Shown here: piece by piece, positions 35,047 through 40,702 of the stretch
How positions within the stretch are numbered: the first letter of the stretch is position 1
Layout: every line of letters begins with the position of its first letter
Assembly (NCBI RefSeq): GCF_017309185.1
Contig: NZ_JAEKJZ010000001.1
Coordinates: 2,542,001 to 2,606,000, forward strand
Direction: 5' to 3'
DNA from: Roseibium aggregatum
Lineage (GTDB): Bacteria > Pseudomonadota > Alphaproteobacteria > Rhizobiales > Stappiaceae
Length of the DNA stretch: 64,000 bases
Position numbers and translations under genes: made by a program
The notes under the pieces: generated by a model
What the model saw: the letters and a program-made list of their open reading frames with translations, nothing else
The model's database searches: none
Told to the model about the DNA's origin: nothing

Positions 35047-36465
35047 CTAAAAAGGCAGGCCGAACCAGAGCGCGGCAATGCCGAGAAAGGCGAAGAAGCC
35101 GACCACGTCCGTAACAGTCGTCACGAACACGCTGGACGCAATTGCCGGATCGACATTGAGTTTGTCCAAAACAATCGGGATCAGCAGCCCCGAAAGACCC
35201 GCGAACAGCATGTTGATGACGATCGCACCGCCAATCACCACACCGAGCCCGACGCTTGAGAACCACAACCAGGCGGTCAGACCGATCAACAGGGCCAGGG
35301 CCACACCGTTCAGAACGCTCACCAGCACCTCGCGATTGAGCACCCTCATCATGTTTCGGGCGCTCAGTTCCTGGGTCGCGATACCGCGCACGGCCACCGT
35401 CATCGTCTGGGTGCCGGCATTGCCGCCCATGGACGCAACGATCGGCATCAGCACCGCAAGCGCGACCATGGCTTCGATCGTGTCCTCGAACAGCGCGATC
35501 ACCACGGAGGCCAGGACCGCGGTCCCGAGGTTCACCACAAGCCAAGCAAGCCTGGAACGGGCAATGGTGATCACATTGTCGGAAATCTCTTCGTCGCCGA
35601 CACCGGCAAGCGCGCGCAGGTCCTCTTCCGCCTCTTCCTGGATGACATCGACGATGTCGTCGACCATGAGCACCCCGACCATGCGGTCGTTTTCATCCAC
35701 GACAGCCGAGGAAACCAGGTTGTAGCGCTCGAACCGTCTTGCGACTTCCTCCTGGTCCTCGGTCGCCAGAACCGCCTGCCGGGTTTCCTCCATGATGGAG
35801 GTAACCTTCTCCGCCCGCTTGGTCCGCAGGATCTTGTCCAGATGGACGGACCCGAGCAGCTTGAAGGTCGGATCGACGACATAGATTTCGTAAAAACTGT
35901 CGGGAAGGTCCCGGGCCTCGCGCATGTAATCGATGGTCTGTCCCACGGTCCAGAACGGCGCGACCGCGATGAATTCGCTTTGCATGCGCCGCCCGGCGCT
36001 TTCTTCCGGATAGTCCAGCGCTTTCCGAAGCTGGGCCCGGTCGGCGTAGGGCAGCTCTTCCAGGATGGCCGCCTGATCGTCCGCGTCGAGATCTTCCAGG
36101 ATGTAGACGGCATCGTCGGAATCGAGCTCTCCGAGACCCTCCGCGATCACCTCGTTCGGCAAGTCTTCCAGAAGCTGCAGACGAACCGCTTCGTCTGTTT
36201 CCGTGAGCGCCGTGTAATCGAATTCGTCGCCAAGAAGGTGGATGAAGGCCGCCCGCTCGTCGGCGGCCAGCGTTTCAAGCAAATCGCCGGTGTCGGCCTC
36301 GTGAAGATTGGCGGCAAGCTGCTTCAGGGCAAACTGGTCGCTGGCCTCGATGGCCGTCTCTACGGCTGCGATGAAATCCGGATTGAGACGCTCGTCCTCG
36401 TCGCGTACCGGAATCGTTTGCGGATCCGGGGAAACCGTCTTTTCAAGCTCGGTAGCGTCGCTCAT
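35047..36465 (-). CDS. mgtE: MgtE family magnesium transporter (copy 1)
   Basis: 472 residues from the ATG at 36465, with AGGAGGGA upstream. The cytosolic MgtE N-domain (acidic helices, 35-145; VYILEDLDADDQAAILEELP), tandem CBS domains (about 150-275; LLGSVHLDKILRTKRAEKVTSIM...MVGVLMVDDIVDVIQEEAEED) and a five-helix C-terminal channel with VLMPIVASMGGNAGTQTMTVAVRG. It is a Mg2+-gated Mg2+ channel. No magnesium riboswitch is evident upstream. A second copy lies at 61.7 kb. Confidence 0.95.
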   Translation of the reverse strand: MSDATELEKTVSPDPQTIPVRDEDERLNPDFIAAVETAIEASDQFALKQLAANLHEADTGDLLETLAADERAAFIHLLGDEFDYTALTETDEAVRLQLLEDLPNEVIAEGLGELDSDDAVYILEDLDADDQAAILEELPYADRAQLRKALDYPEESAGRRMQSEFIAVAPFWTVGQTIDYMREARDLPDSFYEIYVVDPTFKLLGSVHLDKILRTKRAEKVTSIMEETRQAVLATEDQEEVARRFERYNLVSSAVVDENDRMVGVLMVDDIVDVIQEEAEEDLRALAGVGDEEISDNVITIARSRLAWLVVNLGTAVLASVVIALFEDTIEAMVALAVLMPIVASMGGNAGTQTMTVAVRGIATQELSARNMMRVLNREVLVSVLNGVALALLIGLTAWLWFSSVGLGVVIGGAIVINMLFAGLSGLLIPIVLDKLNVDPAIASSVFVTTVTDVVGFFAFLGIAALWFGLPF

Positions 36466-36645
36466 ACGTCTCCCTCCTTTCCGCACGATATTTCGCCCGG
36501 AAAACAGGCCCGGAACGGTTCTCCAGAACTATCCCTTGAAGCGCCAAAGCGCCACAGGAAAAGAAACGCCGGTCCACAGTCTTAGGCACGTTTCCTGAAT
36601 TCGCGGAGGAAGCCCGTCTGCGGCACGCGCGAGAAAATTCGGCAC

Positions 36646-37077
36646 CTAAGAACCGGGGCACCCTTTCTCTCTGGCAACGCCACGCAAATTCGCAAGGTAA
36701 TCGCGAGCCTTTACCGGCAGGATGTCCTCGTCGGGCGAGATACATCGTCCTGACTTGCGAAACGCTCGTCGCGCTCGCTCGGTCTTGAGGCAGACGCCGC
36801 CCTCCGCAAGTACCTGCTGCTCCACATACCAGAGCTGCTGACAGGTCATGGCTCCGAACCGGCCCGGATCGACGGAAGGGGTCTGCCCACCGGCTGCAAG
36901 ACAAGTCAGCGCCCAGAAAAACCCCGTCAGGACAAACCGTCCCGTCCTGACCGGCTTAAGCTGGAATACGCTCGCGGAGGTATGCGGGGTCTTCCAGCAA
37001 GAAGGCCGTCCGGCTCTGACCCGCGAGGCCCCCAGCCACGCAGGCGCGGGCAAGTCGATCCGGGTTTCTATTGCCAT
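36646..37077 (-). CDS. Small exported YARHG-like protein
   Basis: 143 residues from the ATG at 37077, which overlaps the helicase stop by 10 bp; no alternative start codon is visible nearer the hydrophobic segment. An odd 45-residue basic leader precedes a signal-like stretch (FVLTGFFWALTCLAAGG). The rest, MTCQQLWYVEQQVLAEGGVCLKTERARRAFRKSGRCISPDEDILPVKARDYLANLRGVAREKGC, resembles the YARHG domain with paired Cys. It is probably periplasmic. Coupling to the helicase gene suggests co-expression. Confidence 0.6.
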   Translation of the reverse strand: MAIETRIDLPAPAWLGASRVRAGRPSCWKTPHTSASVFQLKPVRTGRFVLTGFFWALTCLAAGGQTPSVDPGRFGAMTCQQLWYVEQQVLAEGGVCLKTERARRAFRKSGRCISPDEDILPVKARDYLANLRGVAREKGCPGS

Positions 37078-39827
37078 CTTCCCAACCGTTCCGCGACTGC
37101 CGCTTCTTCGCTCGCATAGGCCCTGGCACGAGCCCGCAACAGAACCTTCCGCCCTTCCCTGGACCTTGCCGATACCAGAACCGCATCTGAAACCCGGCCG
37201 TTCCAGAGCCTGGCGAATACTTCCGCGTCGGCCTTTTTACCCGAGAGGCAGTCCGGCACCGGATGATAGTCCTCCAGAAGCTTGCCGAGCCCCCTGGCAC
37301 GGCGTAGCAAGATATACTTGGGGTTATCGATCGGGCCGAGAAGCTGCGCAAGACAATCCAGAAACACGGCCCGCTCCTTTGGCTGCGCGCCTTCAAGACT
37401 GCAAAGATGGTCCTCATGCAGTTTTTGCACGACCGGTGTCAAATCCGCCAAAGGGCTTTCGAGCTGATCGGTCGCAGCCAGCGCCTCCAGAACCACCCGC
37501 GCGATCTGTGACAGGTTCCGGGTCTTGTTTCTGTTCCGAAAAACGAGGGCCGCGGTCCGCAGAGGATTGAATCCGCGCAGGAAGGCCACACCCAATCCCA
37601 GCAGAGCCGTCGCTGTCAGGACAACAGCCGAAGTCACCGACACTCCGGAAACCGCCATGCCGGCAACTGGAAGAAGCGCCGCAAGCCCCGAGTACGACAG
37701 CGAACGCAGGGGATGGCGATAGACCCACTTTTGCGCCGGTCGGCGGGTGGTCACCATCGGACGCAATCGGGCACCCGGGGTGTCGAGGTACAAGGCACTC
37801 TCCCACCGCACGGCAAGCGCCACGCGGTCGGCGCTCCTGGCGAAGGTCGCGCCATTGATCCGTTCCAGCCCCTCCGGTGTCCAACTGACGTTTTCAAAAC
37901 CGAGCCGGCCGAGACCCGTCTCTATGAAAGGGGGATCGGACACGCTCAGGCCTTCAAAGGCCTTGAAGCGGCGCACCAGCAGATCCCGGTCCTGGCCAAG
38001 ATCTTCAGGCAGCGCGCCGCGAGGATAACCGGGCCGGCCGCCCGGCAGCTTCACTCCGCCAATCCTGTCGAGGCTATTCAGTGGTCCCTTTGGTTCAGGA
38101 AGGGTCACACAGGCCAGGTGCCAGATATTGGCGGTCTTTCGCGGCGCGTTCGGATCCGTTCGGATAGCCCGTCCGCGCATCTGGTTGGAAAGCATGAACG
38201 ATCCCACCGTGCTTGCCAGCACGAGCGCGTTGATGGAGGGCGCATCCCAGCCTTCGCCGAGAAGAGATTGGGTGCCAACAAGAACCGTGACGCCTCCGCG
38301 TTCGAAAACCTCGGTCACCAAACGAACGCTTTCGTGCTGAAAAGCGCCACGCAACTCGATTTCGACATAGTCCGGAGCATGCGACAAAGGGCGCGTGCTG
38401 AAGTCCTTTTCAGCGATCCCTTTCGCTGCGGCGGCTTCGCGATAAAGAGGAACCGCCTCCACCGGCAGAACAACAAGAGATCCGGTGAGCACGCCGACCT
38501 TGTAAAAATAGTCTCCGTGTTCCCTGAGAACCTCAAACAGCGGTACAACACCGATTTTCACCGGCTCATAGACCCGTTGAGAGGGGGATGGCATCAGATC
38601 GCGGTAAATATGGTCGGTCAGAATGACCATGCGCAGCCCAGCGCCAAGATTTGAACTTTCCGCGGCGACAATCGATCTGATGCTTTGTATCTTTCCGAGA
38701 CTGTTGCGTAGCAGTCGGTCGATCTTGTCCATGTTGGCCAGCATCGGACGGTCGCCGCGAATGCCACCGAACGCCTTGAGATCCGTTTTCAGCCTTTGGT
38801 GACAGCCTTTTTCATCGAACCAGTCAGCACCGTCTCCGGTCAGAACTCCGGCAACGAGGCGTTCGAGAAAATCGCGGTTGAGCGCGGGGACATGCTCTTC
38901 CTCAAGACCGAAGAGCTGAAGCGCCTCAGCCGGAAGCGTCCGGCCAGCTGCCTTGAGGAAGACCAGCCCGGCCAGGAAGAACCCGGAGTTCTTGAACACC
39001 TCCTCCTCATGCTGCAACGGGTCTGCGAACCAGGGCATGCGGGCCATGTTTGACAGAAAACGCTCGTCGTTCAGCAGATTATAGGCGAACCCGTTTACGT
39101 TTTCCGCGAAGGCGTCGATAAACCTCGTTTCATCATCGGTGGGAGCGGAAAAACAGACCAGATCCTGATGCGGACACAAATCGCCGGTTTTGATCAACTC
39201 CGGGACGGAGATCTCGCAATCGATCGGGCCGCATAGCGCTTCGTAACTATCCCATTCGGAGGCATCAGTGTCGTAGGGCGGGGTCGCCGTCAACGAAACG
39301 GTGGTCGCACAGGCTGGCAGCGCTTCGCGAAGACGGACCAGCGAACGTTGCCAGTCCTTTCTAAGGTGATGCGCCTCGTCGAAGACGAGCGTTCCGACAC
39401 CCTGGTCTTTGAAACGGGTGATCAAATCCAGCCCGGAGAGGTCCCGTTCTTCACCATCCTCTGAAGAGGCATCTCCACTCAAGGCCGCATGAAAGCCCTG
39501 ATAGGTGACAATCGTCAGCGGCCCGGGGTTGCGTACGTCGAAGGAAATCCAGCTGATGTCAGCATCTTCCGGCAAAAACAACTCAACCAGACGGGCCTTC
39601 CACTGGTTGCGGATTGCAAGGGACGGCGCAAAGACGATCGCCGGCCTCCCCAGACGGCGCATGACTTCCAGGCCGAGGACAGTCTTGCCCGACCCGGGCG
39701 CGGCAACCACATGCAGTTGCGTGTCCTCCATGTGCCGTTCCAGCTCCTGAAGCACGCGCTTCTGATAACTGCGCCAGTCGTGCTTGAACGCCAGACTTTT
39801 CAGGATCGTCTCGAAGCTCAATGTCAC
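37068..39827 (-). CDS. SF2 DEAD/DEAH-box helicase with C-terminal transmembrane helices
   Basis: 919 residues. Helicase domain 1: Q-rich start WRSYQKRVLQEL, Walker A APGSGKTV (43-50), DEAH box VFDEAHH (148-154), SLTATPP (178-184). Helicase domain 2: VLVGTQSLLGEGWDAPSINALVLAS and QMRGRAIRTD. After about 700 residues come two hydrophobic helices (about 711-728 and 731-750), then a basic helical tail ending LLRARARAYASEEAAVAERLGRWQ. The ATPase core resembles type III restriction R and ERCC3-like helicases, but there is no nuclease or methyltransferase neighbour. Membrane anchoring of such a helicase is unusual; substrate and role are unknown. Confidence 0.82.
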   Translation of the reverse strand: MTLSFETILKSLAFKHDWRSYQKRVLQELERHMEDTQLHVVAAPGSGKTVLGLEVMRRLGRPAIVFAPSLAIRNQWKARLVELFLPEDADISWISFDVRNPGPLTIVTYQGFHAALSGDASSEDGEERDLSGLDLITRFKDQGVGTLVFDEAHHLRKDWQRSLVRLREALPACATTVSLTATPPYDTDASEWDSYEALCGPIDCEISVPELIKTGDLCPHQDLVCFSAPTDDETRFIDAFAENVNGFAYNLLNDERFLSNMARMPWFADPLQHEEEVFKNSGFFLAGLVFLKAAGRTLPAEALQLFGLEEEHVPALNRDFLERLVAGVLTGDGADWFDEKGCHQRLKTDLKAFGGIRGDRPMLANMDKIDRLLRNSLGKIQSIRSIVAAESSNLGAGLRMVILTDHIYRDLMPSPSQRVYEPVKIGVVPLFEVLREHGDYFYKVGVLTGSLVVLPVEAVPLYREAAAAKGIAEKDFSTRPLSHAPDYVEIELRGAFQHESVRLVTEVFERGGVTVLVGTQSLLGEGWDAPSINALVLASTVGSFMLSNQMRGRAIRTDPNAPRKTANIWHLACVTLPEPKGPLNSLDRIGGVKLPGGRPGYPRGALPEDLGQDRDLLVRRFKAFEGLSVSDPPFIETGLGRLGFENVSWTPEGLERINGATFARSADRVALAVRWESALYLDTPGARLRPMVTTRRPAQKWVYRHPLRSLSYSGLAALLPVAGMAVSGVSVTSAVVLTATALLGLGVAFLRGFNPLRTAALVFRNRNKTRNLSQIARVVLEALAATDQLESPLADLTPVVQKLHEDHLCSLEGAQPKERAVFLDCLAQLLGPIDNPKYILLRRARGLGKLLEDYHPVPDCLSGKKADAEVFARLWNGRVSDAVLVSARSREGRKVLLRARARAYASEEAAVAERLGRWQ

Positions 39828-39870
39828 CGCCAGCCGCCACCACCCGCAATCGCACCCAAGCGCAATGCCC

Positions 39871-40443
39871 TCACTCCACGATGCATTCGCGCGGCTGGGT
39901 TTCCATGGTCCATTCGGCGACCGGCAGGGACGGAAGTGACGTCTTGAAGGTCTTGCCGTTCAAGTTGCCCTTGCCGGTCAGCAAATTGACGTCGCACTGA
40001 CCCGCGCCGTTCGGATCCAGCGTATCGTAGTAGCTGTAGGTGTATCCCGCGACGAGGAACTGGTTCTTCCTGTAGGCGATGGTCAGCACCTGTTCCCAGC
40101 GATTGCGGCCGATCGCGGAATTCTCCGAGTGAATTTTCAACGATCCGTGTTCGGTCGCTTCCATCCACGGTTCCGTACCGTACATGGCGCCACGCCAGAC
40201 GAGTCCCCTGGCATAAACCGCCTGCTGCCAACCGTTGCCAGCGTCGGTGAAAATGTAAAGATCGCCGCCATCCTCGCCATCCGCCAGAACGGCCCGGTAG
40301 CGAAAAATATCGCCGTCAACCGGAACGGTCTCAACACCGGCGACCGACATGGCCGGGACCATCGCCTGCTGTGCGAGTGCCAGCTGGGAACTCCCCGCAA
40401 GTGCAACAAAAGCCATTGAAACAAGAAAGGAAATGGGTCTCAT
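39871..40443 (-). CDS. Hypothetical exported protein
   Basis: 190 residues from the ATG at 40443. The signal peptide MRPISFLVSMAFVALAGSSQLALAQQA has a likely cut after ALA. The mature part (VPVDGDIFRYRAVLADGEDGGDLYIFTDAGNGWQQAVYARGLVWRGAMYGTEPWMEATEHGSLKIHSEN...) is beta-rich with no recognised domain and two Cys. It is probably periplasmic. It lies 43 bp upstream of the helicase gene on the same strand and may be co-transcribed. Confidence 0.72.
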   Translation of the reverse strand: MRPISFLVSMAFVALAGSSQLALAQQAMVPAMSVAGVETVPVDGDIFRYRAVLADGEDGGDLYIFTDAGNGWQQAVYARGLVWRGAMYGTEPWMEATEHGSLKIHSENSAIGRNRWEQVLTIAYRKNQFLVAGYTYSYYDTLDPNGAGQCDVNLLTGKGNLNGKTFKTSLPSLPVAEWTMETQPRECIVE

Positions 40444-40615: not shown

Positions 40616-40702
40616 TGGTGCGGTCGAGAAGACTCGAACTTCCACGGGTTTTACCCCACAGCGACCTCAACGCTGCGCGTCTACCAATTCCGCCACGACC
40701 GC
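40616..40702 (-). tRNA. tRNA-Leu, anticodon GAG
   Basis: 87 nt including an encoded CCA. The acceptor stem is GCGGTCG / CGACCGC and the D-loop is of GGAATTGGTAGACGC type. The anticodon stem CAGCG / CGCTG encloses the loop TTGAGGT, giving anticodon GAG, which reads CUC/CUU Leu codons. A long class II variable arm (TGGGGTAAAACCCG) and a T-loop TTCGAGT complete the fold. Confidence 0.97.

Follow-up and report, generated by a model that had tools for sequence, protein, structure and literature searches.

A solitary XPB-like SF2 helicase with a predicted membrane hairpin in Roseibium aggregatum

The helicases XPB, Hef and UvsW have DNA as their substrate. XPB has an N-terminal damage-recognition domain and a RED motif, RIG-I-like receptors carry a four-cysteine zinc site in their C-terminal domain, and ComFA is a DNA-uptake helicase with a four-cysteine motif. 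Here, we analyzed a stretch of 64,000 nucleotides from Roseibium aggregatum (contig NZ_JAEKJZ010000001.1, positions 2,542,001 to 2,606,000; hereafter "the window"), which encodes a helicase of superfamily 2 (SF2) that was compared with these proteins. This helicase combines a helicase core with a recurring hydrophobic hairpin and a separate C-terminal domain, and it has no specific neighbor across lineages. We tentatively propose, with a confidence that approaches but does not reach an even chance, that it is a solitary, membrane-tethered translocase of double-stranded DNA (dsDNA), which would act in genome upkeep or DNA surveillance without a co-encoded partner. Membrane insertion, the dsDNA substrate and the cellular role are predicted.

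The initial annotation had described a 919-residue helicase with complete SF2 motifs, and this description was confirmed. The open reading frame (ORF), which begins with GTG, matched the Pfam families ResIII (E-value 2e-16) and DEAD (E-value 9.7e-8), and its conserved core begins at about residue 14. It contains the motifs GKT (residues 47-49), DEAHH (150-154), LTATPP (179-184), GEGWD (524-528), and QMRGRAIR (549-556); two RecA domains, a Walker A motif, a DEAH box, motif III, and the arginines of motif VI place it in SF2. Because 76 aligned homologues show invariance or a conservation of at least 90% for the residues of these five motifs, the ATPase should be functional. The AlphaFold2 (AF2) model of the helicase had a mean predicted local distance difference test (pLDDT) score of 86.9 and a predicted template modeling (pTM) score of 0.87.

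The best solved relatives were XPB/RAD25 (archaeal XPBII and the TFIIH subunit), both by profile (E-value 9.7e-17) and by Foldseek (E-value 3.9e-13), and Hef and UvsW, among others, ranked after them. Alignment to XPB/RAD25 with VIA-align gave a Z score of 18.6 and a root-mean-square deviation of 3.7 for 382 aligned residues. The likeness by profile and fold concerns the RecA core, over model residues 4-660. In contrast, the NCBIfam XPB score of the helicase was 42.7 bits, compared to a cut-off of 610, the protein is too short at its N-terminus to accommodate a damage-recognition domain, it does not contain the string RED, and a helical insert, a predicted membrane hairpin and an unmatched C-terminal domain are added. 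Hef/FANCM and UvsW also share the RecA core, and Hef, like the helicase, has a helical domain between its RecA domains; however, the helicase is without a Pfam nuclease domain and carries the hairpin and a C-terminal domain of its own. The phage-encoded PHROG 16 "DNA helicase" matched with an E-value of 4.5e-33 for the whole protein, with residues 17-244 as the best stretch, but this match is to the core, and a scan of viral contigs yielded no relative of the whole helicase. RIG-I-like receptors and Dicer appear to have a similar order of core, helical insert, and C-terminal domain, whereas the helicase has no four-cysteine pattern, no CARD was found, and the match ranks below XPB. The resemblance to ComFA is one of working only, that is, an SF2 motor at the membrane; ComFA was not returned by the NCBIfam scan at E-values up to 1, with the ComFA content of this library unchecked.

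Two adjacent hydrophobic helices had been noticed near residues 711-750, and the AF2 model also contains two helices, with slightly different borders (Table 1). Both helices had a mean hydropathy of at least 1.2 at the same place in 68 of the 76 aligned homologues, and, when hydropathy was averaged over all 76, the two top peaks of the entire helicase started at residues 735 and 710. In the region aligned to residues 690-790, an 18-residue hydrophobic segment with a mean of at least 1.6 was present in 86 of 93 rows, and two segments of at least 1.4 were present in 71 of the 93. Two pairs among these rows represent the same genome (L119 and G020:C4; L120 and G006:C37), and no segment was scored for L170 and L179 because their genes are split, the hydrophobic segments being located in the second reading frame of each. 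The mean net charge in the 76 homologues was +2.1 before the hairpin, +0.6 in the loop, which has a median length of 10.5 residues, and +3.6 after the hairpin; the C-terminal flank was more positive than the loop in 69 of them. By hydropathy and charge alone, the protein has the recurring hydrophobic helices and the positive cytoplasmic flanks of an integral membrane protein. In the AF2 model, the hairpin, which has low pLDDT values, is flanked by better-predicted domains on either side. A membrane hairpin with the helicase on the cytoplasmic side is the best reading of sequence and model, and the proposal that the helicase is fixed in the membrane is regarded as probable. The anchor can apparently be absent: a relative encoded on a plasmid of Tritonibacter, a member of the Rhodobacterales (L032:8001-10337, 778 amino acids), has no counterpart of residues 575-769, which include the hairpin, aligns only to residues 3-574 and 770-903, contains no such hydrophobic segment, and would represent a natural anchor-free version.

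The C-terminal domain is well predicted, with a pLDDT of 87.5 when residues 762-919 were folded alone, and searches against the PDB gave no convincing match to it. Foldseek gave no match at an E-value of 0.001 or below, which still allows for a fold that is not listed, the best VIA-align score (Z 5.9 over 69 residues) was inside the background stated for the tool, and the best E-value of the domain profile against PDB sequences was 0.26. Pfam had no match for the window protein and only weak matches in one to three of the 76 members. The columns that are at least 90% conserved include R76, K104, R127, R132, and R139, and one acidic residue, E67 (numbered from residue 762). This set of basic residues with a single acid suggests that the domain binds nucleic acid, and argues against a metal nuclease. 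A four-cysteine pattern was not found in the domain, as cysteine is the majority residue in one column (59 of 76) and occurs in 27 of 76 sequences in another, and no cysteine column reaches 90%. Pfam scans recognized no nuclease or toxin domain in the helicase.

A first scan of one-genome-per-species contigs with the single helicase sequence found no relative. In contrast, a scan of such contigs with an alignment profile yielded at least 345 relatives, and 80 loci were kept. The alignment included 75 of these loci in 76 rows, while L121, L128, L140, L170, and L179 were outside the length range of 850-950 amino acids. The 76 rows of the tree comprise Bacteroidota (43), Bacillota (11), Pseudomonadota (6), Thorarchaeota (3), Omnitrophota (2), Melainabacteria (2), five groups that contribute a single row apiece, and four rows without a label. 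The family thus spans eleven named phylum-level groups and, in addition, a Lokiarchaeota bin, which was left off the tree because of its length. The three Thorarchaeota rows group together in a single branch with full support and have neighbors in common; the archaeal bins may hold foreign contigs. The tree, calculated with FastTree with the hairpin columns excluded, is mostly faithful to the phyla, with 12 label changes compared to a minimum of 10 and a shuffled mean of 27.8. Within the class, 3 of 385 sampled genomes matched, and within the phylum 4 of 398, the window genome being counted in both samples. In the portions of the open-licence literature that were accessible, no description or function of such a membrane-anchored helicase family was found.

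No specific neighbor recurred beyond one bacterial family in the 80 loci and the 40 largest neighbor clusters. The clusters that cross lineages look generic, e.g. ABC-ATPase-like and response-regulator-like proteins. The largest cluster (16 loci) was rejected as a recurring partner, because two unlike proteins had been chained together, which we take from their sequences to be transposase-like and coproporphyrinogen-oxidase-like. In the Weeksellaceae, the adjacent gene belongs to one sequence family in 7 of 9 loci; in all four tested cases it encodes a uracil-DNA glycosylase (PF03167), three times upstream and once downstream of the helicase. In L138 and L161, the gene of the glycosylase family overlaps the helicase gene by 4 bp. 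In the Flavobacteriaceae, a gene that is presumably hemB-like lies immediately upstream on the other strand in 11 of 15 loci (L168, L174, L179, L183, L184, L185, L190, L193, L194, L196, and L197), and other neighbors there are heme-gene-like. In the related loci L165, L167, L169, and L178, a response-regulator-like gene is located 8-23 bp before the helicase gene (Pfam was checked in L165).

Links to defense systems and phages were also searched for. The helicase had only weak partial matches in PADLOC-DB 2023, the best being PbeA (E-value 7.4e-5, 19.4 bits, 89 residues), so that a strong, near-full-length match to an anti-phage system is lacking in this database, which does not hold systems described after 2023. 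PADLOC matched seven models with one member each in 54 of the 59 listed window ORFs, and, in 146 of the 249 listed neighbor ORFs (67 of 80 loci), 21 models that each had between one and three members, in both cases without a control set; the neighbor scan passed over twelve loci that were near-duplicates, close kin or congeners, and over two ORFs that are halves of split helicases. A defense island was rejected, as no cluster was visible around the helicase with PADLOC, although, without a control set, this is not a measured lack of enrichment. The earlier suggestion of a function in DNA uptake or in the sensing of plasmids or phages thus gained no positive evidence, the PADLOC matches being weak, partial or scattered. 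A phage origin was likewise rejected, since the family-profile scan of viral contigs found no relative. Two matching "phage" records are unverified fecal scaffolds without annotation that are perhaps bacterial, and, when viral models were searched by fold, the matches were mainly helicases of phages and giant viruses.

In the window, the helicase gene is flanked on the same strand by the genes for P0003 and the YARHG-like P0002, and the three had been described as a compact unit with two exported partners. The distance of 43 bp between the end of P0003 and the helicase start was confirmed, while "secreted" has to be read as predicted export, because the N-termini of both P0003 and P0002 were judged to be signal-like by eye. 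For P0003, searches of Pfam, NCBIfam, PADLOC, and PHROGs gave no family match, and the YARHG match of P0002 (20.9 bits) was below the Pfam cut-off of 27. As reported, the start of the YARHG-like gene overlaps the helicase stop in the ORF as called (37077 versus 37068), but this overlap is not conserved among the congeners. The P0002 ORF aligns only from residue 39 or later in 36 of the 41 other congeners with a match, and the six other helicase copies at the site have a distance of 99 bp to about 1.2 kb between the helicase stop and the YARHG frame or its first matched residue, with the YARHG start in G017 not fixed in this count. In this strain, ATG 37077 and TTG 37053 are the only in-frame ATG, GTG, or TTG codons ahead of the signal-like stretch. 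The overlap may represent translational coupling acquired in this strain, or an accident of annotation. The terminator-like stem that follows the helicase stop and precedes the conserved part of YARHG lies within the 5'-part of the YARHG ORF and is weak evidence, as the region has six such sites compared to a shuffled mean of 6.1.

Table 1. Positions of the features in the window and, where a locus is named, in that locus
Feature	Position	Strand	Remarks
Solitary SF2 (XPB-like) helicase with predicted membrane hairpin	37068..39827	-	919 aa, GTG start
RecA-like domain 1, residues 1-227, motifs I-III	39147..39827	-	Pfam ResIII 16-184 and model; boundaries by eye from secondary structure
All-helical insert between RecA domains, residues 231-397	38637..39137	-	Secondary structure of model
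RecA-like domain 2, residues 398-573, motifs V and VI	38109..38636	-	Conservation and model
Predicted membrane helix 1, residues 704-727	37647..37718	-	Hydropathy, flank charge, AF2 model
Predicted membrane helix 2, residues 733-750	37578..37631	-	Hydropathy, flank charge, AF2 model
C-terminal alpha/beta domain, residues 768-918	37074..37526	-	AF2 model; without Pfam family or convincing PDB match
P0003, upstream protein, signal-like N-terminus	39871..40443	-	ATG at 40443; ORF may extend to 40500
P0002, YARHG-like protein	36646..37077	-	In 42 of 45 congeners; start codon uncertain
Terminator-like stem, 11 pairs and T tail	36926..36951	-	After helicase stop, before conserved YARHG part
mgtE-type transporter gene	35047..36486	-	Flank of site, in 44 of 45 congeners
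tRNA-Leu(gag)	40616..40702	-	Borders variable site
Uracil-DNA glycosylase by helicase	L126:8256-8951		PF03167
Uracil-DNA glycosylase by helicase	L162:8273-8962		PF03167
Uracil-DNA glycosylase by helicase	L142:11681-12367		PF03167
Uracil-DNA glycosylase by helicase	L161:8294-8983		PF03167

The gene content of the congeners was then compared, with E-value limits of 1e-100 for mgtE, 1e-3 for the YARHG-like gene, and 1e-5 for P0003. A P0003 match was present in 24 of the 45 congeneric genomes, the YARHG-like gene in 42, and mgtE in 44. P0003 and P0002 are neighbors in 20 of the 24 genomes with P0003; the matches in G003, G004, G007, and G008 are far from P0002 and were excluded from the pair count. 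The helicase is located between the pair in only five of the 20 genomes (G000, G006, G017, G029, and G034), so that the three-gene order is not conserved across genomes. The remaining 15 genomes have a gap of no more than about 1.5 kb (printed for 13 of them), which cannot hold the helicase gene. Two helicase holders, G020 and G031, are without a P0003 match, and G024, one of the 15 short-gap genomes, has its helicase close to the tRNA gene, at a distance of about 9 kb from the pair. Neither P0002 nor P0003 was found near 88 non-congeneric family loci at an E-value of 1e-3.

A scan of the window and of eight other neighborhoods located the tRNA-Leu(gag) gene close to the site in the window and in six of the eight, the exceptions being G020 and the non-congener G059. 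In the window, L019, L020, L021, L023, L024, and L025, it is close to a variable site flanked by mgtE and the fliN/lipB side, and this site is likely an insertion hotspot in the genus. The same site in G024 (L021:724-7998) encodes DUF2169-pentapeptide, PAAR-like, Gp5_C-type, and TPR proteins; the first three of these protein types accompany type VI secretion, and the cassette resembles type VI secretion cargo. In G031 (L025:7498-10783), the helicase extends over two reading frames, the second of which contains a run of N, and this may reflect an assembly gap or a masked stretch. The helicase at this variable site is thus either accessory cargo or an old gene that was often lost.

Several results weigh against a solitary, membrane-tethered translocase. 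Within the genus, the helicase is patchy, being present in 8 of 37 congeners; 37 of the 45 were searched, and for G445, G447, G448, G449, and G451 absence refers to the gap between P0003 and P0002 only. On the mgtE tree of 24 scored genomes, five presence changes were counted, compared to a shuffled mean of 6.9, and 39 of 500 shufflings gave values as low. The identity of the helicase among congeners is 57-66%, versus 88-89% for MgtE in the same genomes; such divergence is also seen in accessory or defense genes, but it says little here, because the neighbors P0002 and P0003 are about as divergent. The tree contains odd placements, e.g. a Bacteroidaceae row among the Melainabacteria rows, and the glycosylase link is limited to one bacterial family. 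Lastly, the hairpin is less certain in the AF2 model (pLDDT block means of 57-71 over residues 701-750), and the Rhodobacterales relative is without it.

The patchy distribution keeps alive a single-gene defense function, in which a membrane-fixed motor would meet entering phage or plasmid DNA and strip it, unwind it or signal. The variable spot near a tRNA gene, with type VI secretion-type cargo in one congener, and one full-length relative on a large plasmid are also in line with defense. However, the PADLOC matches of the helicase are weak, those in the 54 window and 146 neighbor ORFs are scattered (no control), no nuclease or toxin domain was recognized, the tree is mostly phylum-faithful, and the position next to the hemB-like gene is stable in 11 of 15 Flavobacteriaceae loci. 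Divergence is not a mark of defense here, because it is no greater than in the two neighbors, and we consider a defense function unlikely, though a serious candidate. Far less can be said for the three genes as one functional unit: they share the strand, the 43 bp spacing and the overlap in this strain, and all five genomes, including this one, in which P0003 occurs together with the helicase at the site have it directly upstream. Yet the helicase does not fit into the gap in 15 of 20 pair genomes, two of eight helicase holders are without P0003 and a third has the helicase at a distance, and neither partner occurs near the 88 non-congeneric loci. The unit was therefore rejected on gene content and is highly improbable; tight three-gene packing in one strain can mislead.

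The hydrophobic helices could also belong to a soluble helicase, as a dimerization or core hairpin instead of a membrane anchor. The lower model confidence over the hairpin, the eight of 76 homologues with a segment below 1.2, the Erythrobacteraceae among them, and the relative without a hairpin are compatible with this explanation. We regard it as improbable, as the position of the hairpin is constant despite sequence drift, its family-mean hydropathy exceeds that of every other part of the helicase, and both flanks are positive. A sensor of foreign or structured RNA, i.e. a RIG-I-type receptor at the membrane, has even less in its favor: LGP2, RIG-I, MDA5, and Dicer are also among the Foldseek matches, and an all-helical insert is combined with a C-terminal domain with conserved basic residues, but XPB scores higher by profile and fold, the four-cysteine pattern was not found in the 76 C-terminal domain sequences, and no further Pfam domain was above the cut-off. 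About as doubtful as the soluble helicase is a pan-prokaryotic one-protein sensor, in which motor and C-terminal domain would grip DNA or RNA that enters or is stuck at the inner membrane and the hairpin would thereby affect the membrane or the passage of DNA.

We tentatively prefer the membrane-tethered translocase over these explanations. The protein would be a stand-alone SF2 motor at the inner membrane, with the XPB-like RecA pair and the all-helical insert facing the cytoplasm. The short two-helix hairpin would serve as the anchor, with both ends in the cytoplasm, and the C-terminal domain, with its conserved arginine and lysine residues, would probably recognize the nucleic-acid substrate. 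The motor would most likely translocate on dsDNA near the membrane and remodel or clear DNA structures or bound proteins, which would represent an accessory function in genome upkeep or DNA surveillance.

SF2 DNA motors are usually regarded as soluble, whereas in this family the motor appears to be fixed to the membrane. The family reaches across Bacteroidota, Bacillota, Pseudomonadota, several candidate phyla, and Asgard bins. If the proposed reading is true, it would raise the question of which DNA work is performed at the inner membrane outside of the known secretion, division, and competence machines.

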